A DNA stretch of 64,000 bases from Nitrospina sp. Its GTDB lineage: Bacteria; Nitrospinota; Nitrospinia; Nitrospinales; VA-1. The first letter of the stretch is position 1, and every line of letters begins with the position of its first letter. Below are positions 3,310 through 54,845 of this stretch, in pieces. A model generated the notes under the pieces. That model was not told where the DNA came from. It was given only the letters and a program-made list of their open reading frames with translations, and did not search any database. A program made the translations under genes and the position numbers. The stretch covers positions 128,561-192,560 of the forward strand of contig JABIAY010000053.1 in the NCBI GenBank assembly GCA_018653085.1. Direction: 5' to 3'.

Positions 3310-6300
3310 ATGAACGTTTTTAAAATGAATCAGAAAGCATTCCCCGGCGGAAAGCCTCCGCAGGCTGGCGTAGCCGCTGGTGGCAGTGTAACGCCGAAGC
3401 GACAGCCGAAGGCTTGGAGCCCGTTTACCCCTTCGGGGCACGAGAGCTTAGGAAAAATATCACGCTCACCGGGCATGGCCCGGAGGCCGAGTGATGCCGC
3501 CATCTTTCTGGTTTCATTTTTAACCTACCTGATTGGTATTTTCCCTTCCATGGTTTATGCCCTCCCCACTGGCGGGACGGTCCAGGCTGGGTCGGCCACC
3601 ATTGACTCGACTTCTTCTCAGTTGATGACCATTTACCAAACGACGGACAAGGCCATCATCGATTGGCAGGCCTTTGGTATTGGGAGCACCGAACAGGTTG
3701 ACTTCCAGCTATCTCAGGGTGGGGTGACGCTCAACCGGGTAACCGGAAATGACCCTTCAAATATTTTTGGCAGGCTAACCTCCAACGGCGATCTCTGGCT
3801 GATCAATCCCAATGGAGTTCTTTTTGGTAATAGTGCGCAGGTGGATGTGCATGGTTTGATTGCGACCACTAGTGATATTTCCAATACGAATTTTATGAGC
3901 AGCAACTATAACTTCAGCACTCCTTCCAGCCTGACTTCAACAGTGGTCAATCATGGCAGTATTACAGCGGCCCAAGGTGGACTGGTTGCCCTGGTTGCTC
4001 CCGGTGTGCAGAACATGGGGGTCATCACCGCGCGTTTGGGCAAAGTGAGCCTGGCTTCTGGAAAAACTTTTACCGTAGATTTGTATGGTGACCAGCTCAT
4101 CAACCTGGGAGTGGATAGTCAGGTGATGGGACAGGTAACCGGAGGGGGTGGGCAGGTGTTGACTTCGCTGGTCTCCAACAGCGGAAGCATCTTTGCTGAT
4201 GGTGGAGTGGTTCGTTTGGATGTCAATGCCGCACAGAATATTGTTGACCGGGTGATCAATATGGATGGCATCATTCAGGCGCGTTCGGTGGTTGAAAAAA
4301 ACGGACAGATCATCCTCATGGGCGGGGCCGCTGGCGAAGTCAGTGTAACCGGCACATTGGATGCATCGGGCTACGGTCAGGACGAAACGGGAGGTACCGT
4401 TCATGTCCTTGGCGAAATGCTGAGGTTTGAGGGCAATGGCCTCATCGATGTCTCGGGTGACCTGGGTGGAGGAACGCTTCTCTTTGGTGGCGACTATCAA
4501 GGCCAGGGTTCGGTTTTCACTGCGACCGATTCCTATATCGGACCGGATACTCAGACTTTTGCCGATGCGGTGACAAGCGGTAATGGCGGTAAGGTGATTT
4601 TCTGGGCTGATCGGCGAATGCGATTTTTTGGTATCGTCAGAGGTCGGGGCGGAAAATATTTTGGCGATGGCGGCTTGGTAGAGGTTTCCGGAAAAGAAGA
4701 ATTATATTTTGATGGATCAGTGGACACCACAGCGGCCAATGGAAAAACCGGTACCCTTCTTCTTGATCCGGACACGATTACTATCGCGGATGGGTCGGGT
4801 ACAACCACCGCCAGTGGTGCTTCGACCTTCACCACAATTTATGAAGATACTCTTGAAGCGGTTTCTTCGACCACCAATATCACTCTCCTTGCCACAAGCA
4901 GTATTTTGTTGAGCGACCTCAGCGATAACCTGCTCAACCTGCAACAAGGCAGTGGCAACTCAGTCACCTTTACGGTAACAGCCGGAACCATCAGTTTCGC
5001 CAGCAGTACGGATACCATATCCACTAACGGCGGAGACATTACCTTCAGCGCTACGGGGGACTTGACTATAGGAAGCCTGACCTCAAATGGCGGAAACATT
5101 TCGCTGACCGGTGATGACTTTTCATTATCCGGAACTCTGAGCAGTGGTGCGGGAAATATCAGTATTACTCATGCTGACAGTGGAAAAATAGGACTTGGTG
5201 GCACCTCGTGTACCGGGTCCTGTGACCTGAGTATCAACACAACGGAACTCGGCAATATGTCGGGCAATAAACTCATCATCGGCGGTTCGACCAACGGGGA
5301 TATCTATGTTGATGGCATTACTCAGACTACGTCCACCTTCTCAAATGGGGTGGAGCTCAATGTGGACGCGCATCTCTCCGGTTCAAAAGGTGCGATTATT
5401 TTTGAAGGTTCGGCCTCTTCGTTTTCAACGTTGGACGCCAGCGCGGTGGACGGCGTAGAGGTCAACGCCAATTTGACAACCACTACCGGAGCCCTGACTC
5501 TGGACGGGGACTCCGATAATGCCGTAGATACTCTGTCGGGTAACGATTACATTATATTTGCCAGCGGGATCACCTTGACCAGCGCAGGGAATATTTCCCT
5601 GAGTGCCACCAATGGCGGAATGACTGCCGCAGGCGCTTTGACCTTGTCCGCGACCTCCGGCCTCACTATGACCGGAGCCATGACCGGGGCCGGAGCTGTT
5701 GCATTGACTGCAAATTCCGGCATTACTTTGAATAGTAGTGTCTCCACCTCCTCGGGTAGTTTGAATATCAATGCAAATTCATCAGCATTGTCATTAGGAA
5801 GTGTCACTTTGAGCTCGGCAGGTGCCTTGACGCTCAGCTCCAGTAGTATTTCTTCTTCAGGAAACCTGGCTCTTACTTCAACAGGTTCCACAATAAGCGT
5901 TGGTAGCGCCGTGACTTCATCCGGGTCGGTGGCTATGACTGCTAGCAGTGGTTTGACACTCAGTAACAGCACGCTAACGGGCTCGGGAAGTGTTAGCCTG
6001 GAAGGTGGAAGTGCGCTCACTCTTGCCAGCGGCACAACCATTACCTCATCGGCAGGAAGCATTACTCTGGGTGCCTCGACAGGTTCGATCACCGCAAACG
6101 GAGCGTTAACGCTTTCCTCGAATGGCAGTATCACGGTCAGCAATACGATGACCACAGCCGGAGCCGCAACATTCAACGCTAACTCGGGAATCACTCTGGC
6201 AACCAACGTCACTACCAATGGTGCGACGGTTATGGATGCGGATCTCGACAACAACGGTTCGGGTGATTTCACCATTTCGTCTGGCTCCTTATCGACCACC

Positions 6301-9099
6301 AACAATGCGCTGACGGTGACCGCCGATGACCTGGTCCTGACTGGAACGATTAATAGCGGTACCGGCTCGACTACCATCAATGTTGCCGACAGCGGTTCTT
6401 TGGGAATCGGCTTCAGTTCCGGATTCGGCATGAACCTCACCAGCACTGAACTGGCAAATATAACGGGTACCGGTGATCTCAATCTGGTGAACGGGGCCAT
6501 CACCTTTGCGGCAAGTTCCAGCTTGAGTTCTTCCGGAAAATTGACCGTAGGCCAAAGCGGCGGAACAATAACCGGGCAAGGGGCCCTGACATTATCCGGC
6601 GCAAAAGGATTGGCCATCGATAGCAGTACCCTCTCAGCGGCAGGAAACTTGACCCTGGAAGGCGACTCCAACAATTCGGCGGACTCGGATGATAGTATTT
6701 CCCTGGCTTCGGGGGCAACGCTCACGGCATCTGCGGGTTCTATCACGTTGAACGCGACCACCGGCGGTATATCGGCGGCGGGGGCAGTGACTCTCAACGC
6801 GACCACTGGCATCACCATCAACGATAGTTTTACATCGGCGGGTACCACAACTTTCGATTCCGATACGGATAATGACGGGTCGGGAACCTTCACCATTGCC
6901 TCCGCATTGAGTGCGGGGAACAATGCTATTTCCCTTACGGTAGGGGGCATGGCCCTCAACAGCACCCTGAGCAGTGGAACCGCGAGCACCACTATTCTGG
7001 CTTCTTTATCGGGAGCTACGATTGGCCTTGGCGCATCCAGTTGTGGAGGGACCTGCGGGGTAAGCCTGACTTCTTCGGGGCTGGGAAATATCACCGCCGG
7101 CAGTCTCATCATCGGTGATGGGTCGAATGGAAATATTACCGTTGAGGGCGTAACAACTTCCATAGCAAACGTGACATTAAACGCGACGGCTTCTGGGTCT
7201 TCGGTGACTTTTGAAAACTCGGACTCTACCTTCCAAGGCCTGACAGTGAATGCGGAAAATGGAGTCACACTTTCTTCGAACCTGACTACCAACGGAACAA
7301 CCAGTTTTGATTCGGATTCGGATGATGACGGCACTGGTGATTTCACTTTGGCGGCAAGCAAAACATTGTCTACTACAAATAATGCTCTATCGCTTACATC
7401 CAACGACATAGCATTTGGTTCGGGTAGCTCGATCACTTCAGGGACTGCGGGCACAACTCTCTTAACTGCTCAATCTGGAGCAACCATTGGTTTGGGTGCC
7501 GGTACAGGAACTTTTTCCATGACAAATAGTGAACTGGGCCAGATCACTTCCGGCAGTCTCACCATTGGTAATACATCGAATGGAGCGATTACTGTTGCAG
7601 GAGTTTCCTCGACCAGCTTTGGAGCACTCACTTTGAACTCCGGCTCCTCGATGACCTTTTCATCCACCGCATCTTCGTTCAGTGGCTTGACCCTGGATGC
7701 CGGGGGAGCGGTGGACTTTGGAGTGGATGTAACGACGACCGGAAATTTGAGCGTCACTTCAGGGGGAACGATTACGGATACGGGGACTTTGACGATAGCG
7801 GGAACATCCAGCTTTACCACTGACGTGGACAATCAAGCGATCACTCTGGACAATACATCGAACGCATTCACGGGCGCAGTGAGCTTGAATACTTTGGGAA
7901 CCTCTGGCAACGCCACGTTGACCAACAATAACGCGGTGACTCTTTCTACCTCCACCGTTGGTGGAGACCTTGCGGTAACGGTGGGCGGAGATAATTCGTT
8001 GAACGTGACGGGTGCCGGGTCGGCTGGTGGTTCTATCAGTCTGCTTGCGGACGATGACATTATTTTTACTGCCGCTGGCGACTTGACCACCACAACCGGA
8101 AATATCACACTTACCGCCGACAACGATTCTGACAATAACGGATCGGGTGGAGCTCTGACCATGGTAGATGGAACGGTGTTTGACGCAGGGTCTGGAACCT
8201 TGGCCCTGTCCGCCGATGAAGACATCACTCTCGGCCTGCTTGAGACCACAAGTTCTTCAGACACCGCTGTGACACTGACTTCAACCAGCGGCGGGGTGTT
8301 TGATGGAGACGCCAATGCGTCTTTCAGTAATACCACGATAATTGTTGGGAGTGCGTCCGATTCGGTTCTTGATATTATTGCGGAAAGCGGCAGGCTGGTG
8401 GTGGATACGGTGACCGGATTTGGGACAGAAGATAATGCCATGGAGACAAAAGTCAGCTCTGTGGATATCGACAACACCACATCGGGCGATATCAATATCT
8501 TTGAATTTGACGGTATCGAAATTTCTAAAATTGCCCAGGCCGGGTCGGGCGATATTATAGTTTCTTACCAGGGTTCTATTTCCGGATCCGGCAACGCGGA
8601 GATTACTTTTAGCGGCACTCCCAAGGGAACCACCAAGTTCATCCGCCGTGATGTCAAGGATCTGGTCATAGGAGGAACCGGAAAAACCCTGGGCGAGCTT
8701 GCCTTTGGTACCACACAACAGCTTACTTTCGATACCTTTGAAATTAAGGCTCCCGACTTTCAGGGCAAGACACCGGTAGACCTTGTTGCCGGGTCCCCCA
8801 ATGGGCCCTTTACCATGGATGTCTTCAGTGAGAGTTTTGCGCTGGTTGAGCTGGCGGAAGGAAGCTCTGGAAAATTTGATGGAATGGAAGTGACTCAGTC
8901 TTTCTGGGGTGGCCCAAGCAATACCAGCCTGGAAGTGGCGCAAAAGAAAAACCCGGAGAAAAAATCCCGTTCCCGGCAGAGATCGGCTAAAAGGAAAAAA
9001 CTGAACAAGAAAAAGGTGGATGAAACCGCCGCTCTTACTCTGAAAAAACCGCGCCGCATCCAGAGGAGTGAATCGGGCTATCTTGACTTTGTTCGTTAA
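3310..9099 (+). CDS. TpsA filamentous haemagglutinin-like secreted adhesin
   Basis: This 1,929-residue secreted beta-helix protein is the cargo of the preceding TpsB. After the signal segment (about 62-80, ending SMVYA) comes the TPS secretion domain with typical motifs, including LWLINPNGVLFG. The body is Ser/Thr/Gly/Ala-rich and repetitive. It includes a composite module seen three times (Asp-rich DxDxDGSG loop, then an IGLG...SNG unit) at about 6232-6510, 6853-7160 and 7308-7617. The C-terminus is strongly basic (KKNPEKKSRSRQRS onward) and lacks an obvious toxin or autotransporter barrel. The ATG at 3310 has AGGA 7 nt upstream. Residues about 10-60 derive from an inserted repeat-like block, so the signal peptide lies unusually deep. 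An alternative start at 3475 would give a normal signal peptide but lacks a ribosome-binding site. Confidence 0.88.
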   Translation: MNVFKMNQKAFPGGKPPQAGVAAGGSVTPKRQPKAWSPFTPSGHESLGKISRSPGMARRPSDAAIFLVSFLTYLIGIFPSMVYALPTGGTVQAGSATIDSTSSQLMTIYQTTDKAIIDWQAFGIGSTEQVDFQLSQGGVTLNRVTGNDPSNIFGRLTSNGDLWLINPNGVLFGNSAQVDVHGLIATTSDISNTNFMSSNYNFSTPSSLTSTVVNHGSITAAQGGLVALVAPGVQNMGVITARLGKVSLASGKTFTVDLYGDQLINLGVDSQVMGQVTGGGGQVLTSLVSNSGSIFADGGVVRLDVNAAQNIVDRVINMDGIIQARSVVEKNGQIILMGGAAGEVSVTGTLDASGYGQDETGGTVHVLGEMLRFEGNGLIDVSGDLGGGTLLFGGDYQGQGSVFTATDSYIGPDTQTFADAVTSGNGGKVIFWADRRMRFFGIVRGRGGKYFGDGGLVEVSGKEELYFDGSVDTTAANGKTGTLLLDPDTITIADGSGTTTASGASTFTTIYEDTLEAVSSTTNITLLATSSILLSDLSDNLLNLQQGSGNSVTFTVTAGTISFASSTDTISTNGGDITFSATGDLTIGSLTSNGGNISLTGDDFSLSGTLSSGAGNISITHADSGKIGLGGTSCTGSCDLSINTTELGNMSGNKLIIGGSTNGDIYVDGITQTTSTFSNGVELNVDAHLSGSKGAIIFEGSASSFSTLDASAVDGVEVNANLTTTTGALTLDGDSDNAVDTLSGNDYIIFASGITLTSAGNISLSATNGGMTAAGALTLSATSGLTMTGAMTGAGAVALTANSGITLNSSVSTSSGSLNINANSSALSLGSVTLSSAGALTLSSSSISSSGNLALTSTGSTISVGSAVTSSGSVAMTASSGLTLSNSTLTGSGSVSLEGGSALTLASGTTITSSAGSITLGASTGSITANGALTLSSNGSITVSNTMTTAGAATFNANSGITLATNVTTNGATVMDADLDNNGSGDFTISSGSLSTTNNALTVTADDLVLTGTINSGTGSTTINVADSGSLGIGFSSGFGMNLTSTELANITGTGDLNLVNGAITFAASSSLSSSGKLTVGQSGGTITGQGALTLSGAKGLAIDSSTLSAAGNLTLEGDSNNSADSDDSISLASGATLTASAGSITLNATTGGISAAGAVTLNATTGITINDSFTSAGTTTFDSDTDNDGSGTFTIASALSAGNNAISLTVGGMALNSTLSSGTASTTILASLSGATIGLGASSCGGTCGVSLTSSGLGNITAGSLIIGDGSNGNITVEGVTTSIANVTLNATASGSSVTFENSDSTFQGLTVNAENGVTLSSNLTTNGTTSFDSDSDDDGTGDFTLAASKTLSTTNNALSLTSNDIAFGSGSSITSGTAGTTLLTAQSGATIGLGAGTGTFSMTNSELGQITSGSLTIGNTSNGAITVAGVSSTSFGALTLNSGSSMTFSSTASSFSGLTLDAGGAVDFGVDVTTTGNLSVTSGGTITDTGTLTIAGTSSFTTDVDNQAITLDNTSNAFTGAVSLNTLGTSGNATLTNNNAVTLSTSTVGGDLAVTVGGDNSLNVTGAGSAGGSISLLADDDIIFTAAGDLTTTTGNITLTADNDSDNNGSGGALTMVDGTVFDAGSGTLALSADEDITLGLLETTSSSDTAVTLTSTSGGVFDGDANASFSNTTIIVGSASDSVLDIIAESGRLVVDTVTGFGTEDNAMETKVSSVDIDNTTSGDINIFEFDGIEISKIAQAGSGDIIVSYQGSISGSGNAEITFSGTPKGTTKFIRRDVKDLVIGGTGKTLGELAFGTTQQLTFDTFEIKAPDFQGKTPVDLVAGSPNGPFTMDVFSESFALVELAEGSSGKFDGMEVTQSFWGGPSNTSLEVAQKKNPEKKSRSRQRSAKRKKLNKKKVDETAALTLKKPRRIQRSESGYLDFVR
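3337..3500. repeat. dispersed-repeat-like block embedded in the tpsA 5' coding region
   Basis: This GC-rich stretch resembles the intergenic repeats elsewhere in the window. It has a GGCGTAGCCGC segment like the reverse complement of the repeat end at 35000-35015. It has CGAAGGCTTGGAGCC, similar to CGAAGGCGTGGAGCC at 9243-9257. It also has a GGGGCACGAGAGCTTAGG segment mirroring 12495-12515 in reverse. The palindrome CCGGGCATGGCCCGG lies at 3469-3483. The reading frame stays open through it, adding about 50 Pro/Gly/Arg-rich residues ahead of the signal peptide. Confidence 0.65.
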
Positions 9100-9280
9100 C
9101 CAGCGTGACGCTGGACTCTACTGGCAATAGCATTGTCAGGCTGGCAAAAGTTATCTCGGCTTAATGAAGTCTTGCTCTCTGCTTCCCTCGCCAGAGGGCC
9201 ACTAGCCGTGGTGGCAAAGAGGTGGTGGTGCTAAGCGACCGCCGAAGGCGTGGAGCCTGTTGAGTCCAGCGTCACGCTGG
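9100..9280. mobile_element. 181-bp element with 19-bp terminal inverted repeats (MITE-like)
   Basis: The left end (9100-9118, CCAGCGTGACGCTGGACTC) and right end (9262-9280) are perfect 19-bp inverted repeats, each itself containing a CCAGCG/CGCTGG hairpin. The element starts immediately after the tpsA stop codon (TAA at 9097-9099). At its other end it supplies the TGA stop of the minus-strand gene at 9272-10123. Internal sequence carries no ORF of note. It shares pieces with repeats at 21.8, 34.9 and 54.8 kb. It could be a non-autonomous transposon or a large REP-type composite. Confidence 0.6.
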
Positions 9281-10123
9281 CGCGGCTAGTGGGTGGTTTG
9301 TTAAATATTCCGCATCGATGATACTCAGCCTGCCGTATTGCGGGTCCTCCACATACTCTTTATATATTCCGTCAAACTGGTTACCGGTTTCAGGACTGCT
9401 TTTTAATTCGAGGAACCGGGTTTCAACCGAGTCGCGTCTGAGCAGTTTGAGAGTGGCATCATCGAGTTTAAACGGAGGCTCCAGTTTTTCCAGCGCGACC
9501 AGAGGTTCCACCCCTTCCGCTATGATGTCCTTAATCTCTTCCTCCAATAAATTTTTTCTTTCCTGATGGCGGGCATGAGGGTAATCGGCCTGAGAGAAAA
9601 CCATGAAATCCAGATCGAACCAGTAATTGTTAATGAAGTCATCAAAGTTCACTTCAACCGCGTTGCTCAAATGAATATCCCGGGAGTTACCGGGGTCGTC
9701 CCGAATCAAGCTGTTATAGACCTGGATGATATTGTGGGCGGAGTCGTAGAGTACGGGCCAGTGATAGGCGTTGGCCGATTCGTGAGTGCGAAAGGAGTCC
9801 ATCGCCTTAACCAGCGTAACCAGCGTGAAATGCATATCTTCCATTTTCAGGAATGCGGATGTCCAGGGGAATCGGTTTTTATACCATTGCTCGACATCAG
9901 ACGGGTATTCCTGCCTCGAAGAGTCTGCTGGAGGCCGGTAATCGTTGTCGATAAAATTCATGATGTCATCGATTTCCTTGTAGGCCAGGTCCAGTCCAGC
10001 CCGCACCACCGTGTAGGGAAACAGCTTGCGCTGGTATTCCATATACTGTTTCAATTCCGGAAGCTTGTCTTCCAATTCGTGGCGGTGGTCTCTTTGACCA
10101 ATATCTTTAGCGAATATCAACAT
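9272..10123 (-). CDS. hypothetical protein, 283 aa
   Basis: I do not recognise this family. The protein is soluble, rich in acidic and aromatic residues and probably mostly helical, with no signal peptide or membrane segment. A Glu/Leu/Lys-rich stretch at about 195-245 looks helical or coiled. It begins 7 nt after the stop of the 150-residue gene (10131-10583), so the two probably form an operon. The last residues (about HPLAAPA) and the stop lie inside the repeat element at 9100-9280 and adjoining repeat sequence. The native C-terminus may therefore have been altered by insertion. Confidence 0.65.
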   Translation of the reverse strand: MLIFAKDIGQRDHRHELEDKLPELKQYMEYQRKLFPYTVVRAGLDLAYKEIDDIMNFIDNDYRPPADSSRQEYPSDVEQWYKNRFPWTSAFLKMEDMHFTLVTLVKAMDSFRTHESANAYHWPVLYDSAHNIIQVYNSLIRDDPGNSRDIHLSNAVEVNFDDFINNYWFDLDFMVFSQADYPHARHQERKNLLEEEIKDIIAEGVEPLVALEKLEPPFKLDDATLKLLRRDSVETRFLELKSSPETGNQFDGIYKEYVEDPQYGRLSIIDAEYLTNHPLAAPA

Positions 10124-12436: not shown

Positions 12437-12580
12437 AACCCGTACCCACCGTGCATCGTTGCGAGGAGCATGGCGACAGCCGTGATATTTAACCTTAGTC
12501 CTCGTGCCCCGTGGGATAATGAGGAATATAGCGCAGGGGGGTTTTACTTTGGCCCCACGCCGAGTGGGTGGTAGAATGGA
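12437..12580. repeat. dispersed repeat region between nadE and elbB
   Basis: Two repeat-like pieces are present. TTGCGAGGAGCATGGCGAC at 12459-12477 resembles a REP-type motif common in several phyla. GGCCCCACGCCGAGTGGGTGG near 12551-12571 is the reverse complement of the repeat start CCACTAGGCGTGGGGCC seen at 13293 and 46697. CCTCGTGCCCCG near 12500 also matches part of the block inside tpsA in reverse. No coding sequence is seen here. Confidence 0.5.
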
Positions 12581-12629: not shown

Positions 12630-13298
12630 ATGAAAAAGATTGGTGTGGTGCTTTCGGGATGTGGGGTTTATGACGGTGCGGAGATTCATGAGTCGGTCAT
12701 CACGTTACTGGCGATTGACCGGGCTGGTGCCAAGGCGGTGTGCATGGCTCCGGATGTGGAACAGATGCATGTGATCAATCATCACAACGGTGAGGAAATG
12801 CCAGATGAAAAACGCAATGTGCTGGTCGAGTCGGCCCGCATCGCCCGTGGTGAGATCCGCGATATCAATGCGATCAAGGCGGATGATATTGACGCGCTGG
12901 TGTTCCCCGGCGGATTCGGTGCGGCCAAAAATCTCTCCAGTTTTGCGGAAGAAGGGGAAGACTGCAAGGTCCACCCGGAGGTCATGCGGCTGGTGAAAGA
13001 GTTCATCGCCAAACAGAAACCGCAAGCGGCGTTATGCATCGCCCCTGCCATGATGGCTAAAATTTATGAAGGGGAATCGGTCAATCCCACGCTGACCATC
13101 GGTAACGACAAGGATGGCATTAGCATGGTTGAAGCGATGGGAAGCAAACATCAGGAGTGTTCGGCTCGGGATTTCGTTCTCGATAAGGAAAATAACATCG
13201 TCTCCACTCCTGCCTATATGGTGGGCAAGAGCATCTCGGAAGTAGCCGAAGGCATTGAAAAAACCATCACTGAGCTCATCAAAATGATCCCCCACTAG
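12630..13298 (+). CDS. elbB: ElbB-type DJ-1/PfpI superfamily protein
   Basis: This 222-residue member of the DJ-1/PfpI superfamily is closest to ElbB, called isoprenoid biosynthesis protein and later reported to have glyoxalase activity. Typical ElbB features are the start KKIGVVLSGCGVYDGAEIHE, the HHNGEEM segment and FPGGFGAAKNLSSFA. The nucleophile-elbow cysteine lies in AALCIAPAM. Length matches the family. GAGGGGGAG lies just upstream of the ATG. The TAG stop falls within the repeat motif CCCCACTAGGCGTGG, so the repeat appears to supply the stop codon. It stands alone between nadE and the glycan operon. Confidence 0.9.
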   Translation: MKKIGVVLSGCGVYDGAEIHESVITLLAIDRAGAKAVCMAPDVEQMHVINHHNGEEMPDEKRNVLVESARIARGEIRDINAIKADDIDALVFPGGFGAAKNLSSFAEEGEDCKVHPEVMRLVKEFIAKQKPQAALCIAPAMMAKIYEGESVNPTLTIGNDKDGISMVEAMGSKHQECSARDFVLDKENNIVSTPAYMVGKSISEVAEGIEKTITELIKMIPH

Positions 13299-13375
13299 GC
13301 GTGGGGCCAGAGTGAACAGCAACCCCCCCCCCAAGCCCCCTTCTCAGGGGGGAGCTAGTTTGCCTCGGGACTAGC
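13294..13375. repeat. dispersed stop-codon-associated repeat copy
   Basis: The copy starts ACTAGGCGTGGGGCCAG, the first 17 bases of the core seen at 46699, with the elbB stop codon inside it. It then runs into a C-rich/G-rich hairpin (CCCCCTTCTCAGGGGGG) and ends near GCCTCGGGACTAGCCGG. It lies between elbB and the promoter region of the glycan operon. Confidence 0.6.
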
Positions 13376-21801: not shown

Positions 21802-22017
21802 ACCACTACTAGGCGTAGGGCCAGTGTGCCATCGCTTTATTTGGCGAGCAAAGAGTTGCCTCGGCTCAACGAGCCATTGCACTTTGCCTCCATGGCTAGT
21901 GGCCAGCGTGACGCAGGGTTGTTTACCGCAGGAAGGGCTTCCCATGATTCATAAGGCCGCCAACGAGTTTTGATCGCTCAAAAAAGTTATTGCTAGTTGG
22001 CTGCGGGGCCTGCCCCG
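21802..22017. repeat. dispersed repeat copy between LRR gene and smc
   Basis: The core at 21808-21866 (ACTAGGCGTAGGGCCAGTGT onward) matches 46699-46757 at 55 of 59 positions by eye. It continues with TGGCTAGTGGCCAGCGTGACGC, as in the 9.1-kb element, and ends in a GCGGGG-CCTG-CCCCGC hairpin (22003-22018) that touches the smc stop codon. No coding sequence is seen. Confidence 0.7.
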
Positions 22018-25000
22018 CTAGTTGAAGTGGACGGAAACTGCTTTGGAGACACCCTGCTCTTCCATGGTTATGCCGTAGAGGGCGTTGGCGAAAGTCATGG
22101 TTTTTTGGTTGTGGGTGATGATGATGAATTGCGTGTTGACGGCCATTTCCTTGAGCATTTCCTGGAAACGGACTACGTTGGCCTCGTCCAGCGGGGCATC
22201 TACTTCATCGAGCAGGCAGAAGGGGCTGGGTCGGACTTTAAATACCGCGAACATCAGGGCGATGGCGGTCATGGCTTTTTCCCCACCAGACATCAAGGCC
22301 AGGCTTTGCAGGCTTTTGCCTAGGGGGTTGGCGGTGATTTCAATCCCGGAATCGAGTGGGTTGGATTCGTCAGTCAAGGTCAGGTTTGCCTTTCCTCCTT
22401 GAAAGAGTCGCGCAAAAATTTCCTTGAAGTTTTCGTTAACCCGTTCATAGGTGTCGAGAAACCGTTGTTGGGTGGTCTGATTTATTTTCTCAATTGTTGA
22501 ATGCAGTAGTTCTATTGACTCGGCAAGATCGTCCTGTTGTTTTTTCAGGAAGGTGTAACGCTCGTTGGATTTTTCAAAATCCGAAAGTGCCGCCAGGTTG
22601 ACTTCACCTAATTTTGCTGTCTTTTCCTTGAGTTCCTTGACCTGCTCATCGGTTTCATTTTCATCGATGGTTTCATCATAGGCCGACTGCAATTCCTCCC
22701 GGGTTGCGTTGTAGTCTTCATAGGCACGCTCTTCCAGGTGGACAATTTGCAGGCGGTTTTCTGATCGCTTGATTTCTATCTGCGAGAGGGTTTCGGTGAT
22801 CTCCTGGATTTTTCGGGACAGCTCACGAATGTCCTGTTCCATTTCTTTCTGGTTCTCTTCCTTCTGTCGCAGTGATTCTTCTTCCTGCACGGCTGTTTCG
22901 CTCAGCTGATCTTTTTCCCGGGAAAGCTTGAGGACTGTGTTTTCCAAAGTTGAAACTTCGGTTTCAATCTCAGCGATTCTGTTCTGGTTTGAAACTCGAT
23001 CCGCCTCGCGCCTTTCAATCTGCTGTTTCAGGTTTTGTTGCTGAAGTTCCAGCCGTTTGATTTCGGTGAGTGTGTTTTCCCGTCGACCGATCAGTGATGC
23101 GATCAAGACTTTGAGCCTGCTGATCTCAGATGAAATCTCCTCAAGGCCGGTCCGGCTCTGTTCCAGTTCTTCCCGATGGCGAACTAAAAGTTCTTCTTCC
23201 TGATTTCTTTTTTGCTCGGCGATACCCACTTGTTGGCTTAGTGAGGATTTTTCTGTGACCAGTTCATCCCTTTCGCTGTCCAGAGCTGAAATTTCTCCAG
23301 CTATTGCGGTATCCCGGTTTTCAAGGCGTTCAGCTTCCTTGCGCCATTGCTCCAGGTCGCGGAGTTTGTTGTTTGTTCCGAGTTCTGCGGCAAGAGCTTG
23401 CTGGTCTAATTGTTTCAGGCTGGTCTCAAGTTCGGCAAGGCTCTGTTTTTTCTTTTCGATGTTTTCCAGTGAGGTGTCCAGTTCCTCTTTGAGCTTGCTG
23501 GTATTATCGCTGAGAGTTTCTATTTCGCGGTTCCGGGCCAGTAGGCTGGAGGATTCGTTTTCCAGCGAGCCTCCGGTGACGAGTCCGTTTGCATCAATCA
23601 TTTCACCGTTTAAGGTGACAACCGTTCCATGAAAATTCGCATCCTGATGCAGGTGAAGGGCCACATCCATATCCTGAACGATGACAACGCTTTTCAGCAA
23701 CATCTCGATGACGGGGCGGTACTCTTCCTGACATTCAATGAAATTGAGCGCTTTACCCACGACTCCCTGTGTACCGTTTAAATGAAGTGGGGCAGAGGGA
23801 ATCGATTTCGGATTGAGAGGAACGAACAAGCCGCGACCGGAATGATGGTTTTTGAGATAACTGATGGCCTCCATCGAATCTGAATGGGAATTGACAATAA
23901 CACTTTGGAGTTTTTCACCCAAAGCCGTTTCGATAGCCATTTCATATTCTGCCGGAGTCTGCAGAACATCGACCAGTACTTCCCGGATGCCCGGAATTCG
24001 TTCGCCGTTCTGGTTGCCCATAAGGGATTTGATGCCTTCTTGAAATCCCTCAAACTGATTCCGCAGTTTTTCCAATGAACCCAGCAAGGAGGCTTTATGA
24101 AAATAGTCTTCCTTTCTGGAGCTATGACCGTCGCTTTCAGCTTGGAGTTGTTTGGAGTATTCGGCAGTTTCCTGACGCAAGGTCTCCTGCTGTCCCTTCA
24201 ACTGTGTGAGTTCCCCGGCCTTTTGCCGGTATTCTGATTCCCCTTGTGCCAGTACCGACTGGTTTCCCTGAATTTGGGAATGGACTTCTTCCTTTTCCGA
24301 TACAAGTTTTTCCTGACGGGCTTCCAACCCGTGAACCCGGGTCTCAAGAGCGGTCAGCTGATTTTTTGATTGTGCCGTTTGCTGGAATAAACTGTGAACA
24401 CTTCTTTCTCCGTTGAGAACCTGTTCTTGAATTCCCTGTAAAGCTTCCCGCTTCTCCTCATTTTCGGCTTTGCGCTGATCCAGTACAATTTCCTGTTCGT
24501 TGATTTCCTGCGAGGTGGCAGAAAGGTTTTGCCTTTCGCTTTCGATATTGTTTGTCAAGCCGCCGATTTCCTCGCCCATCTGGGAAATTTCTTTTGTAGC
24601 GGATTCGATGTCCGTTTCCGCTTCCGATTTTTGTTCCTTTTTGAAAGCAACGCTTTGTTCACTGCTTCCGATTTGAGAGTTCAGTTGATGAATGGTTTCG
24701 CGGGCTTCATTCAACCGCTCAAACGATCCTTCAATTTCTATATTGAGCTGGGCGATCTGGTTTTCGAAGGTGGCGTGGCGGGCACTCCACTCTGTTTTCT
24801 TTTGGGTTTGTTCTTCTAACTCTGTTTCTATCGTCTGCAGTTGCGATTGATAGCGGCGGACTTTGATGGAAAAAAGTTTCAGAGACAGTTGCTTGATTTC
24901 GGATTTATATTTTTTATAGCGTTCCGCCTTGGCGGCCTGACGCTTCAATGATTCGACCTGCCGGGCGAGTTCTTGCACGATATCTGCGATCCGTTCCAAA

Positions 25001-25575
25001 TTCTGACGCGAACTGTCGAGCTTGCGGATGGCTTCGTTTTTGCGGTGTTTGAATTTCAGGATTCCTGCGGCTTCTTCAATAAGAATCCGTCTTTCTTCCG
25101 GTTTGGAAGTGATGATGTCCTGAATATGACCTTGTTCAATAATGGTCAATACCTTCGGACTGATACCGGCATCCATCAGGAAGTCCGTGATATCCTTTAA
25201 TCGACATGGAATCTGGTTGATATAAAATTCGCTTTCGCCGGAACGATGGTAGCAACGGGTGACTTTGACATCTTCAGCCGAATTGGGAATCCCGGCAATC
25301 CGGATTCCCGATGGCACGTTGGATAAGGTCAGGGAGATTTCTGCCCGGTTCACGGGTTTTCTGCTACTACTGCCATTGAAAATGAGGTCTGTTATGCGGA
25401 CGCTACGCAGGGTTTTGGATCTTTGCTCGCCGATAACCCAGCGGATCGCGTCAGATACATTGCTTTTTCCGCAACCGTTTGGGCCGACAATGGCGGTAAA
25501 ACCGTTTTTAAACTCCAGGTTGGTAGAGTCGACAAACGACTTAAAACCCTCTAGCTCTAAATTTTTCAGGTACAT
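22018..25575 (-). CDS. smc: chromosome segregation ATPase SMC
   Basis: SMC is the condensin ATPase that organises and segregates the chromosome together with ScpA and ScpB. The 1,185-residue length is canonical. Walker A GPNGCGKS is at 31-38. Two long coiled-coil arms flank a hinge at about 510-670 (IPGIREVLVDVL..., then YLKNHHSGRG). The C-terminal head has the ABC signature LMSGGEKAM and Walker B CLLDEVDAPLDEAN. No scp gene is adjacent. It is divergent from the ArsC-like gene, with a 12-base dyad in the shared upstream region. Confidence 0.96.
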   Translation of the reverse strand: MYLKNLELEGFKSFVDSTNLEFKNGFTAIVGPNGCGKSNVSDAIRWVIGEQRSKTLRSVRITDLIFNGSSSRKPVNRAEISLTLSNVPSGIRIAGIPNSAEDVKVTRCYHRSGESEFYINQIPCRLKDITDFLMDAGISPKVLTIIEQGHIQDIITSKPEERRILIEEAAGILKFKHRKNEAIRKLDSSRQNLERIADIVQELARQVESLKRQAAKAERYKKYKSEIKQLSLKLFSIKVRRYQSQLQTIETELEEQTQKKTEWSARHATFENQIAQLNIEIEGSFERLNEARETIHQLNSQIGSSEQSVAFKKEQKSEAETDIESATKEISQMGEEIGGLTNNIESERQNLSATSQEINEQEIVLDQRKAENEEKREALQGIQEQVLNGERSVHSLFQQTAQSKNQLTALETRVHGLEARQEKLVSEKEEVHSQIQGNQSVLAQGESEYRQKAGELTQLKGQQETLRQETAEYSKQLQAESDGHSSRKEDYFHKASLLGSLEKLRNQFEGFQEGIKSLMGNQNGERIPGIREVLVDVLQTPAEYEMAIETALGEKLQSVIVNSHSDSMEAISYLKNHHSGRGLFVPLNPKSIPSAPLHLNGTQGVVGKALNFIECQEEYRPVIEMLLKSVVIVQDMDVALHLHQDANFHGTVVTLNGEMIDANGLVTGGSLENESSSLLARNREIETLSDNTSKLKEELDTSLENIEKKKQSLAELETSLKQLDQQALAAELGTNNKLRDLEQWRKEAERLENRDTAIAGEISALDSERDELVTEKSSLSQQVGIAEQKRNQEEELLVRHREELEQSRTGLEEISSEISRLKVLIASLIGRRENTLTEIKRLELQQQNLKQQIERREADRVSNQNRIAEIETEVSTLENTVLKLSREKDQLSETAVQEEESLRQKEENQKEMEQDIRELSRKIQEITETLSQIEIKRSENRLQIVHLEERAYEDYNATREELQSAYDETIDENETDEQVKELKEKTAKLGEVNLAALSDFEKSNERYTFLKKQQDDLAESIELLHSTIEKINQTTQQRFLDTYERVNENFKEIFARLFQGGKANLTLTDESNPLDSGIEITANPLGKSLQSLALMSGGEKAMTAIALMFAVFKVRPSPFCLLDEVDAPLDEANVVRFQEMLKEMAVNTQFIIITHNQKTMTFANALYGITMEEQGVSKAVSVHFN

Positions 25576-30821: not shown

Positions 30822-30895
30822 CCACTAGGCGTGAGGCCAATGTGCAATAGCTCGTAAAGCTAAGAGAACATTTGTCCGCAAGGTAAAGACATTAC
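30822..30895. repeat. dispersed stop-codon-associated repeat copy
   Basis: Directly after the carbamoyltransferase TAA comes CCACTAGGCGTGAGGCCAAT, nearly identical to the copy after the HIT gene (46697). It is followed by a degenerate continuation (GCTAAGAGAACATTTGTCCGC). No coding sequence is seen. Confidence 0.65.
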
Positions 30896-30926
30896 AATTT
30901 TCAGCGGAAGCACCCCACCCGGATAT

Positions 30927-32944: not shown

Positions 32945-34927
32945 ATGACAGCAAAGCGGGTGGAAAATTATCTGGGTAAAGAGGGAATTCTGTCTACGCA
33001 GTTGGACGGATTCGAATACCGGCACCAGCAAATGGATATGGCAGGTGCTGTGGAAGAGGCGTTTGGCGATGCCCGGCACCTGATCGTGGAGGCGGGAACG
33101 GGTACGGGGAAAAGTCTGGCCTACCTCATCCCGGCTATTTTATGGGCTGTGGAAAATAATAAGAAGGTGGTCATCTCTACTTATACCAAGACACTCCAGC
33201 AACAGATTCTTAATCACGACATCCCTTTTCTTCGCGACAAGCTGGGAATTAATTTTCGTTATGCCTTGTGCATGGGTAGCGAAAACTATTTGTCGCTCAG
33301 GAGGATGAAACGGTCGGCCCAGGCAGGGCTGTTCACTCAGGCTAATGAGGAAAGCCAATGGGAGGGTATTTTCAACTGGGCCGGAGAGACAGAGACCGGG
33401 TATCGGAGCGACCTCTCTTTTGAGGTTCTTCCCCAGGTGTGGGAAGAGGTGGGAAGGCAGAAAGATCTTTGTATGGGGAAAAACTGCGAGACCCATTCGT
33501 CTTGCTTTTATTTCAAGGCGCGGAAAAAGTGGTTCGGCGCGCATCTTTTGATTGTCAATCACCATTTGTTTTTTGCCAATGTTGCCAATGCCGGGGCGGT
33601 GCTCCCTGCTTTCGATGCGGTGGTGTTTGACGAGGCACAGAATCTGGAAGAAGCGGCTACCCAGTTCCTGGGCCTGGAAATTTCCAATTCCAATTTATTT
33701 TATTTCCTCGACCGGTTGCATAACCCGCGTAGCAAACGCGGACTGTTGGCCCGAGTCGATCACGACTCGGTACCCCATCTTCGCAAGCTGGTTATGTCGG
33801 TACGTCAGGCGGTCGAGGCTTTTTTCAATCACCTTCTGGAAGAGTATGGAAAAAACGACCGGGTCCTCAGGTTCTACAAACCTCCTGTATTCGACAACGG
33901 TGTGTATGTTCCGATGGAAGCTCTCCGGGAAGGATTGAAATCTCTGGAAGCGGGACTGCACTCGGAAGAGGACCGGGTGGATGCGTCAGCCGCCGCCGAG
34001 CGGTGTTTTGAGTTCAACAACACTCTGTCGGCCATACTCAATCAACATATGCGAGGATATGTCTACTGGATAGAAATCGCTAAAAGGAAACGCTTCCCCC
34101 GGGTGGTCTTGCGCGGGGTTCCCATTCATGTGGCGGAAGAACTGCACGCGCAGGTATTCGATAAACTTGATCGGGTGGTTATGACCTCTGCCACGCTGAC
34201 TACTTCCAAGGGATTCGACTTTATTAAAGAACGCATTGGTTTTCAGCCGGACGAAGAGTTGTCTTTGGATGCGCCCTTCGATTATTCCCGTCAGGCATTG
34301 CTCTATGTTCCCGATGATCTTCCCGAACCGGGTGCTGAAGCAGGTGTTTATGTGGAAGGCATTGCCAGCAGGTGCCGGGAGTTGGTGGCGATTTCCGGAG
34401 GCAAAACTTTTATCCTGTTTACCAGTTACGCGCTTCTCAACCAGGTTTATGAAAAGCTGGATGAGATGCAGTTCCAGTTCCCGCTTATCCGGCAGGGGGA
34501 TATGCCCACCGGCCTGATGATAAAAAAATTCAAAGAAAAACCTTCGGTGATCTTCGGAACCAACTCTTTCTGGCAAGGGGTGGATGTGCCCGGTGATGCG
34601 TTGCAAAGTGTGATCATCACCAAGCTGCCCTTTGACGTTCCGAAAGAGCCGTTGACAGAAGCCCGCATCGAGGAACTGCGACGGCAACATATCGACCCGT
34701 TCAAGCATTACCAGATCCCCAGGGCGATCATTCAGTTGAAACAGGGATTCGGCCGCTTGATCCGAAAAAAAACCGACACCGGTGTGGTTTCCATTCTTGA
34801 TTCCCGCATGAGTCGGCGCGGTTATGGAAAACAGTTCATCGCTTCATTACCCCCCTGCCCGGTAACAACTCAGCTGGATAAAGTCCGAGACTTCTTCGCC
34901 TCTAGCGAGGCAGGCAGTGAGCAATAA
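32945..34927 (+). CDS. DinG/XPD-family ATP-dependent helicase
   Basis: This is a 660-residue superfamily 2 helicase. Walker A AGTGTGKS is at 50-57. Four cysteines at 109, 176, 181 and 187 are arranged as in the iron-sulfur cluster of XPD and DinG helicases. The Walker B box reads DEAQ (229-232) instead of DEAH. Motif VI is QGFGRLIRKKTDTG near the end. The family unwinds DNA 5'-3' and resolves R-loops or damaged structures. The frame extends to a GTG at 32924; ATG 32945 is preferred but neither has a strong ribosome-binding site. The stop is followed at once by a repeat copy. Confidence 0.9.
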   Translation: MTAKRVENYLGKEGILSTQLDGFEYRHQQMDMAGAVEEAFGDARHLIVEAGTGTGKSLAYLIPAILWAVENNKKVVISTYTKTLQQQILNHDIPFLRDKLGINFRYALCMGSENYLSLRRMKRSAQAGLFTQANEESQWEGIFNWAGETETGYRSDLSFEVLPQVWEEVGRQKDLCMGKNCETHSSCFYFKARKKWFGAHLLIVNHHLFFANVANAGAVLPAFDAVVFDEAQNLEEAATQFLGLEISNSNLFYFLDRLHNPRSKRGLLARVDHDSVPHLRKLVMSVRQAVEAFFNHLLEEYGKNDRVLRFYKPPVFDNGVYVPMEALREGLKSLEAGLHSEEDRVDASAAAERCFEFNNTLSAILNQHMRGYVYWIEIAKRKRFPRVVLRGVPIHVAEELHAQVFDKLDRVVMTSATLTTSKGFDFIKERIGFQPDEELSLDAPFDYSRQALLYVPDDLPEPGAEAGVYVEGIASRCRELVAISGGKTFILFTSYALLNQVYEKLDEMQFQFPLIRQGDMPTGLMIKKFKEKPSVIFGTNSFWQGVDVPGDALQSVIITKLPFDVPKEPLTEARIEELRRQHIDPFKHYQIPRAIIQLKQGFGRLIRKKTDTGVVSILDSRMSRRGYGKQFIASLPPCPVTTQLDKVRDFFASSEAGSEQ

Positions 34928-35020
34928 CTTTACTTGGCGAACAAAGAGTTGCCTCGGCTCAATCAAGTTATCGCTCTCTGGGTCCAGCATCACGCTGGCT
35001 AGTGGCGGCTACGCTGGTAC
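34928..35020. repeat. dispersed repeat copy between dinG-like gene and CDP-alcohol transferase gene
   Basis: The segment TTGGCGAACAAAGAGTTGCC (34935-34954) matches the repeat core at 21.8 and 46.7 kb. Then come GGTCCAGCATCACGCTGG, as in the 9.1-kb terminal inverted repeat, and GCTAGTGGCGGCTACGCTGG. The TAG stop of the minus-strand gene (34999-36117) falls in CCACTAG of this repeat. Confidence 0.65.
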
Positions 35021-46696: not shown

Positions 46697-46859
46697 CCAC
46701 TAGGCGTGGGGCCAGTGTGCCGTTGCTTTATTTGGCGAGCAAAGAGTTGTCTCGGCTTGATATGAGCCTCCCCCTGATAAGGGGGATTGAGGGGGTTGCC
46801 CTTACTTAATGGGACACTGGATAGAACTATTGCTCATGACACCGGCGGCTATGCCGGTA
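46697..46859. repeat. dispersed stop-codon-associated repeat copy (best core)
   Basis: Immediately after the HIT-gene TAA comes CCACTAGGCGTGGGGCCAGT. The 59-bp core (46699-46757) differs from the 21.8-kb copy at 4 positions by eye. A C-rich/G-rich hairpin follows (CCCCCTGATAAGGGGG), and the copy ends in CCGGCGGCTATGCCGG just ahead of the nadA ribosome-binding site. The terminal hairpin may influence nadA translation. Confidence 0.7.
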
Positions 46860-54149: not shown

Positions 54150-54749
54150 ATGCACTATAAAAAAGAACGGTTTAGTCAGTTATTGAGGTGCTTCATGAGG
54201 CGGGGTATTCCTGTTTTGATGATTTTGGGACTGGTAGGCGCGTCTCCCGTATTTGCAGAGGAAAAATGCGAGCCGGTAGATAAAAAACGTATCAAAATCG
54301 AAGGTTTTATCTCCAAATCTTTCCGCAAACAAAGAAAACAGGTCTTCAAGGAATTTGGAGAGTTGGGTTCTACACGTGTGGCCTTGAGGGTGTATCCCAT
54401 GGGCGAGACTTCGAAAGTGATAGCAGTGGGACGATGTGTTCCTGCTTACCTCGCCCAGCATATCATCAAAAAAGCCATGCAATACAGCACTGGCGTGGAG
54501 AGCCTGGTGCAACAACAGTTTGTCCATACCCATTGGGTGGGTGTTGGAGTCACGATGTTTGATGAGCCTTCACAACAGATTGTATCAGCCGAACAGGTTC
54601 AGCAATTGCTAAAGCCGGATATTTCCGATGCGGAGTTTCATGTCCTGTACCGGAAACTGTCGGTCCCCAATGCGTTGACTCCCTTTTTCGGCCTGCAGGT
54701 CCCCAATGTCAAAATCGCACCCCCCAGCAAGGGAGACGACTATCCCTAG
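54150..54749 (+). CDS. hypothetical exported protein, about 199 aa
   Basis: I do not recognise this family. After a basic N-terminus there is a signal-peptide-like hydrophobic segment (IPVLMILGLVGASPVFA). The mature part has two cysteines (KCEP and GRCVPA), a Lys/Arg-rich helix and a mixed alpha/beta body, so it is probably periplasmic with one disulfide. ATG 54150 has AGGGA upstream and is chosen over TTG 54117. It follows the small YHS-like gene and runs up to a repeat copy. Confidence 0.65.
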   Translation: MHYKKERFSQLLRCFMRRGIPVLMILGLVGASPVFAEEKCEPVDKKRIKIEGFISKSFRKQRKQVFKEFGELGSTRVALRVYPMGETSKVIAVGRCVPAYLAQHIIKKAMQYSTGVESLVQQQFVHTHWVGVGVTMFDEPSQQIVSAEQVQQLLKPDISDAEFHVLYRKLSVPNALTPFFGLQVPNVKIAPPSKGDDYP

Positions 54750-54845
54750 CCCCTTAGCAGGGGAGGCAGATAGCAAGGGCTCTTTGTGCCGAGGTAAACT
54801 TTTGCTGTCGGCAAAGCTATTACTAGCTGGGTCCACGCCTGGTGG
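54750..54845. repeat. dispersed stop-codon-associated repeat copy next to phoU
   Basis: Read on the minus strand from the phoU stop, the sequence is TAACCACCAGGCGTGGACCC, matching the repeat start TAACCACTAGGCGTGG after the HIT and carbamoyltransferase genes in the same orientation relative to the gene. The other side (AGCCCCTTAGCAGGGGAGGC) abuts the convergent exported-protein gene. Confidence 0.65.

Follow-up and report, generated by a model that had tools for sequence, protein, structure and literature searches.

The genome of this Nitrospina bacterium houses a dispersed family of palindromic elements anchored with single-base precision at stop codons: in 836 kb of it, 43 of the 108 motif copies (at most two mismatches) lie at a stop, 17 of them flush, i.e. 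with the full stem beginning at the first base after the stop, and 26 with the stop held in the loop of a terminal hairpin. On balance, we favour the view that this is an old, genus-specific, non-autonomous palindromic element of the MITE/REP-BIME type, whose insertions survive where the upstream protein stays intact. The Nitrospinota are major marine nitrite oxidisers; a full-text search of a literature collection found no paper combining Nitrospina with palindromic repetitive DNA.

The window, i.e. the whole 64,000-nucleotide stretch that was analysed, belongs to a 259-kb contig of a 3.16-Mb assembly with 78 contigs; its carbamoyltransferase has its closest named relatives, at 90-91% identity, in metagenome assemblies of Nitrospina and Nitrospinaceae. 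Copies were analysed in detail in two sets of stretches from this genome: a first set of 439 kb (the window, the remainder of its contig and parts of other contigs; 76 motif copies at no more than two mismatches) and a held-out set of 397 kb from other contigs, fetched after the first set (32 copies). Gene calls come from a simple ORF caller based on codon usage, and the congener assemblies used for comparison are mostly fragmented. A Pfam check upheld the gene names HIT, carbamoyltransferase, PhoU, DJ-1/PfpI (the elbB gene) and CDP-alcohol transferase. The loci in the window are as follows:

46697..46859, plus strand: composite insert between the HIT gene (stop TAA 46694-46696) and nadA, empty in most congeners and filled in one (G012). 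Its parts are an H1 hairpin CCAC-TAGGC-GTGG (46697-46709), a type A body, truncated, that runs to about 46760, a further repeat rich in G (46771-46800) and a right hairpin ACCGGC-GGCTAT-GCCGGT (46841-46858).
30822..30926, plus strand: element flush behind the carbamoyltransferase stop TAA 30819-30821, its H1 stem with a one-base mismatch (CCAC/GTGA).
54750..54845, minus strand: complete 96-nt element filling a convergent gap exactly from stop to stop, with its H1 side at phoU (TAA, minus) and its CCCCT-TAGC-AGGGG side at the gene 54219-54749 (TAG, plus).
13290..13306, plus strand: hairpin CCCCAC-TAGGC-GTGGGG; elbB stops at the TAG in its loop (13296-13298), one codon later than its orthologues.
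34898..34998, plus strand: 101-nt element flush with the TAG stop of the CDP-alcohol transferase (34999-35001, minus), with end hairpins GCCTC-TAGC-GAGGC and CCAGC-GTGAT-GCTGG.
9100..9280, no strand assigned: element island between convergent genes, nearly empty in two congeners (G002, G008). A CCAGCG-TGA-CGCTGG hairpin is flush behind TAA 9097-9099, an H1-like hairpin lies at 9199-9211, and a further CCAGCG-TGA-CGCTGG at 9266-9280 has as its loop TGA the stop of the minus-strand gene 9272-10123.
21806..21905, plus strand: complete 100-nt element with a co-varied left stem CTAC-TAGGC-GTAG, off stops.
22004..22017, minus strand: hairpin CGGGGC-AG-GCCCCG flush behind the stop of the SMC gene (22018-25575, minus).
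12555..12567, minus strand: H1 copy CCACTCGGCGTGG, off stops.

Beside the island, positions 3310-9099 hold a 1929-aa gene resembling two-partner-secretion exoproteins (TPS domain and DUF5649), with internal repeats. As the first-pass annotation of this DNA had claimed, repeats directly follow the TAA stops of the HIT gene (CCACTAGGCGTGG), of the carbamoyltransferase (CCACTAGGCGTGA) and, on the minus strand, of phoU (CCACCAGGCGTGG), and the elbB stop TAG lies within CCACTAGGCGTGG itself. The parallel claim for the CDP-alcohol transferase stands in part: the TAG does lie within CCACTAG, but what comes next is a different hairpin, CCAGCGTGATGCTGG, rather than GCGTGG.

The family is strongly amplified. 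The 13-mer CCACTAGGCGTGG, with at most one mismatch, has 279 matches in the 3.16-Mb genome against a single one for the reversed motif, which bears out the amplification proposed at first sight. Eight matches with up to two mismatches fall in the window where 0.72 are expected, a number reached by none of 100 shuffles. A 17-mer (up to two mismatches) recovers between 3 and 194 copies in 14 of the 15 other genomes of the genus and none in the remaining one; 12-19 copies were counted in the five genomes of one further genus of the family, and beyond it there are few at most. The repeats are concentrated in one genus of the Nitrospinaceae, whose genomes range from 0 to about 300 copies. Since the best copy pairs compared are only about 94% identical, and the medians are 78-84%, the copies look old by their sequences and give no sign of recent mobility.

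In the usual form, type A, two terminal hairpins frame a body of about 70 nt, the whole unit measuring about 100 nt; H1 is the hairpin CCAC-TAGGC-GTGG. In the 76 copies of the first set the left edge is sharp at CCAC and the right side modular; the body is quasi-palindromic, and therefore both ends read alike. A body-only profile, blind to the ends, detected 140 bodies in six genomes, and 178 of 230 ends have a perfectly paired hairpin, with a stem of 4 bp or more, directly outside the body (flank shuffles: mean 42, maximum 53). These stem-loops comprise 51 distinct left and 61 distinct right types, including CCAC-TAGGC, CCAGCG-TGA, CTGC-TAGCC, CCCCT-TAGC, CCCAC-TCCC, CCGGCG-AGC and GCGGAG-TAC. 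With so many end types on one body, the motif originally noticed represents one of the end types in a larger family: the cores at 21808 and 46699 do differ at 4 of 59 positions, as had been read by eye, but the single 59-bp core family envisaged on that basis gives way to a modular element with interchangeable terminal hairpins. The perfect pairing of such sequence-diverse hairpins suggests that it is maintained, via selection or via repair synthesis across the palindrome. The family thus combines a BIME-like trait (modular islands of palindromic units with interchangeable hairpins) with those of MITEs (short, non-coding, dispersed inverted repeats with empty sites). Folding of the RNA, proposed as a check, yielded a modest conserved fold in the body, and no Rfam family scored above its gathering threshold in the window (best at the HIT insert, E = 0.41, far below the cut-off). 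Nor do the hairpins have the form of intrinsic terminators: the H1 hairpins precede GGCC-type body sequence with no T run after them. Beside or inside elements there also recurs a second dispersed repeat rich in G, CCCCCTGATAAGGGGGATTGAGGGGGTT, as does a relative beginning CCCCTCCCTTCATAGGGAGGGG (46771-46800 and many other loci).

The tabulation of stop distances that the first-pass annotation had called for, carried out over the 836 kb, places the anchoring far above chance. In the first set, 16 of the 76 copies have the TAG of the TAGGC loop as the stop and 12 of 76 are flush; neighbouring offsets hold one copy or none each, and the flush peak is one base wide. The held-out set adds ten loop-stops and five flush copies among 32. 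Under uniform placement within gaps, 0.37 flush copies would be expected in the first and 0.19 in the second set, about 0.55 in all, and the placement is thus not random relative to stops. The anchoring is orientation-specific, in keeping with the claim of a constant orientation relative to the gene, and the left neighbour gene is co-oriented in 77 versus 31 cases. It is highly improbable that all this is a gene-calling artefact or chance, with the TAG of the repeat merely truncating called ORFs: the loop class does use the element's own TAG and the genes are simple ORF calls, but in the flush class the stop is the host's own, the pattern recurs in the held-out half, and the ends of insert-free orthologues fall on the identical residue or no more than one codon away.

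Only 6 of the 108 copies lie inside called genes. About 60% of the sampled copies are not at stops, and TAA or TAG (TAR) precedes the hairpin in just 1 of 40 off-stop H1 copies. Of the suggested target preference for gene ends, the exact anchoring at stops holds, but these off-stop copies give no evidence of a general target-site preference, and a general TAA/TAG target was rejected on the same grounds. When hairpins of any sequence were surveyed at 1438 gene ends from six genomes, 63 were flush after the stop and 49 had the stop as the first three loop bases, as compared to about 14 and 13, respectively, at eight shifted control positions. Of 60 gene ends reading TAG|GC, 35 pair their last codons (at least 4 bp) with the bases that follow the stop, the two arms co-varying, whereas such pairing occurs in 1 of 53 ends reading TAA|GC or TGA|GC.

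Empty sites, whose presence in relatives had been proposed as a check, were found at several loci, e.g. HIT, elbB and phoU, and orthologues of anchored genes mostly reveal full-length proteins. Between HIT and nadA, most congeners have the stop, 4-9 nt and then ATG, while in this genome and G012 the insert stands directly behind the stop. At elbB, close congeners finish in ...CCC-TGA and this genome in ...CCC-CAC-TAG; hence, the loop TAG replaced the stop and added one codon. Wherever another loop-stop gene has a clear orthologue, its protein stops at the native residue or one codon beyond it, and phoU is 5-7 residues shorter than its orthologues. The same stop can also be occupied by unlike repeats: six species, whose SMC proteins (1185 aa) all end in KAVSVHFN, each carry a repeat of their own at the SMC stop, with a diverged body common to two of them, and an 802-aa gene has different repeats at its stop in five species. 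Between convergent genes an element can span precisely the interval that separates the two stops (54750-54845 is an example). In Nitrospina sp. SI073_bin146 (L118, about 4809-4850) the carbamoyltransferase stop is followed by TCATTAGGTATGAGG, with a perfectly paired TCAT/ATGA stem, which looks like a diverged element.

Under the favoured reading, the element would have moved as a non-autonomous unit, a mobility to which its dispersal and the empty sites point, and insertions into genes would have been purged unless they left the upstream protein intact. Two sites would be tolerated: the position directly behind a TAA or TAG stop, and one at which the TAG of the TAGGC loop replaces the native stop, possible only in the reading frame that stops at once. 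The fit would then grow sharper as surplus host bases separating the stop from the hairpin were deleted. The excess over the reversed motif, the concentration in one genus, the empty and filled sites, the replicated anchoring, the paucity of intragenic copies, the co-orientation of the left neighbour gene, the perfect hairpins at body ends, the pairing across TAG|GC stops and the near-unchanged length of loop-stop proteins all support this reading. Against it stands the one-base width of the flush peak, because random insertion filtered by selection should spread over several offsets, as does the repeated occupation of the same nucleotide in different species; searches for a transposase partner yielded none in this genome, and no target duplication could be demonstrated. 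Selection alone does not explain these two features well; both would be explained by a TA/YTAR target with a restored stop, or likewise by erosion of superfluous host sequence as far as a maintained hairpin.

The first of these options is a possible but unlikely reading in its own right: a candidate transposase would insert the element at the TA of YTAR stops, the first element base (G or A) would restore TAG or TAA, and the insertion in the stop would therefore be silent. Convergent genes sharing a YTAR would then end flush on both sides of an element. The single-base peak speaks for it, as do the Y preceding the stop in 13 of 14 cases, the use of the same nucleotide in up to six species, the TA on both sides of the HIT insert, and the stop-to-stop elements, together with the -4 (YTAR) overlap being the commonest among convergent genes. 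The 63 flush stops of the six-genome survey also fit, comprising 35 TAG, 24 TAA and 4 TGA although TGA makes up 31% of all stops; however, the share of TGA falls before C in any case (to 21%), and hence stop context may be behind part of this deficit. The near-absence of TAR before off-stop H1 hairpins tells against such targeting. A TA target duplication would fit the HIT insert but is not generally displayed by the flanks of 57 complete elements. A CTAG target duplication arising from nested insertions was also considered; its one clean-looking case is no proof of duplication, because hairpins followed by CTAGG recur with other, unrelated left flanks. In the six-genome sample, 8 of 221 convergent pairs share stops on YTAR (e.g. 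G008_C9:47554 and G003_C45:1170), and in two of these eight the shared CTAG is a hairpin loop.

A mobilizing enzyme was sought in two transposase families, and the lack of both in this genome likewise weighs against stop targeting. The Y1 transposase (PF01797; RAYT/IS200 type) has no match in it; a single Y1 gene is present in 4 of 16 congeners (L239, L240, L241 and L242), without H1-H4 hairpins around it, and in three of these GGGGTCAAGTC-type sequences, unrelated to the element hairpins, flank the gene. The IS630-type transposase DDE_3 (PF13358) is absent from this genome and represented by one gene in one congener. Accordingly, neither a RAYT/Y1 nor an IS630 origin was retained.

Rather unlikely, too, is an account in which selection for a function of the RNA where genes end (for instance mRNA 3'-end protection or the modulation of termination and ribosome recycling) would preserve the hairpins and would have produced some of them, with the repeats as raw material. 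Consistent with it, the arms co-vary even where they include the last codons (CCAC/GTGG, CCGC/GCGG, CTAC/GTAG, CAAC/GTTG, TAAC/GTTA, GCAT/ATGC), the hairpins vary in sequence but not in position and pairing, and REPs within 15 nt of the stop reportedly stall ribosomes in E. coli (PMC12306157, citing earlier work). However, only about 9% of gene ends carry a hairpin in this genome (65/723) and 4 of 162 in G002, orthologues often lack it, and more than half of the copies lie off stops. We hold it to be more doubtful still that a mobile element recognizes YTAR stops and has its hairpin arms rewritten to match the last codons of the upstream gene, whether through synthesis templated across the palindrome or through a guide-like pairing; arms rewritten per gene would let lineages dock unrelated hairpins at the same stop, with the stop at or in the loop. 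A target-guide variant, with four host bases paired to an element guide, is attractive for the loop-stops of G013 and G008 but is not established: AAC and CCGC stems are also found at other places in G013 as variants of the element, and in cases like elbB the gene becomes one codon longer.

The element works like REPs and MITEs, but we assign it to no named family, because it lacks two tested features of GTAG REPs (tag and RAYT) and cannot be placed among TA-type MITEs. As regards integron attC sites, which would form a cassette array with an integron integrase, the copies here are scattered over contigs beside core genes. GTAG-tagged REPs/BIMEs are 20-40-bp units with an unpaired GTAG tag, mobilised by RAYTs, for which there is a RAYT gene, and flanking ORFs often take their TAG stop from the termini of these units (Di Nocera et al., 2013, PMC3733652). 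Like them, the present elements are palindromic, of high copy number, located between tandem or convergent ORFs near 3' ends, grouped in mosaic clusters and able to supply the TAG stop; unlike them, they are about 100 nt long with two terminal hairpins, have the TAG in the loop or in the host, and lack a Y1 gene in this genome. The tag itself is absent: the flank before H1 is TAG or TAA at stops and variable elsewhere. TA-type MITEs (RUP, Correia/NEMIS, ERIC; reviewed in PMC2229807) are likewise dispersed non-coding inverted repeats of about 100 nt with empty sites, but the terminal hairpins here are sequence-diverse and no IS630-type partner is present in this genome. YPAL/RU-2 of Yersinia, a 168-bp palindromic mobile repeat without TA ends, is comparable but longer, makes 3-26-bp duplications and forms a single enterobacterial family, with no stop docking described in the relevant part of that review (PMC2229807). 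QMITE2 of Coxiella is a MITE with a REP, located mainly in 3' UTRs and in one strain immediately preceded by a stop; it differs in its 150-190 bp and 7-11-nt direct repeats, and the corresponding part of PMC5896051 does not describe it as generally stop-docked. Stop-supplying repeats are thus already known; unusual here are the single-base docking and the sequence-diverse, perfectly paired hairpins.

By landing at a gene end, where it can bring its own stop, a selfish repeat can become highly abundant at next to no cost, although the genome is compact. The stop-in-loop hairpins with co-varying last codons offer natural, replicated data on stop-codon structure in translation termination, and the diverse yet always paired ends raise the question of how palindromes stay perfect. 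Docking may extend to the ends of RNA genes, as judged from copies directly behind apparent tRNA 3' ends (...CCGCCACCT|CCAC and ...CCGCACCA; L045, about 17384 and 17644; L037, about 4153). At L037, about 5800 (contig C46 of this genome, 125.8 kb), an element behind the LGKWYI.H gene, with orthologues in G013, G002 and G008, has a right hairpin, CGGAGGTACTCCG, that terminates at the next start codon; this hairpin seems to provide the Shine-Dalgarno sequence of the next gene, such that the element's ends would dock at a stop and a start.
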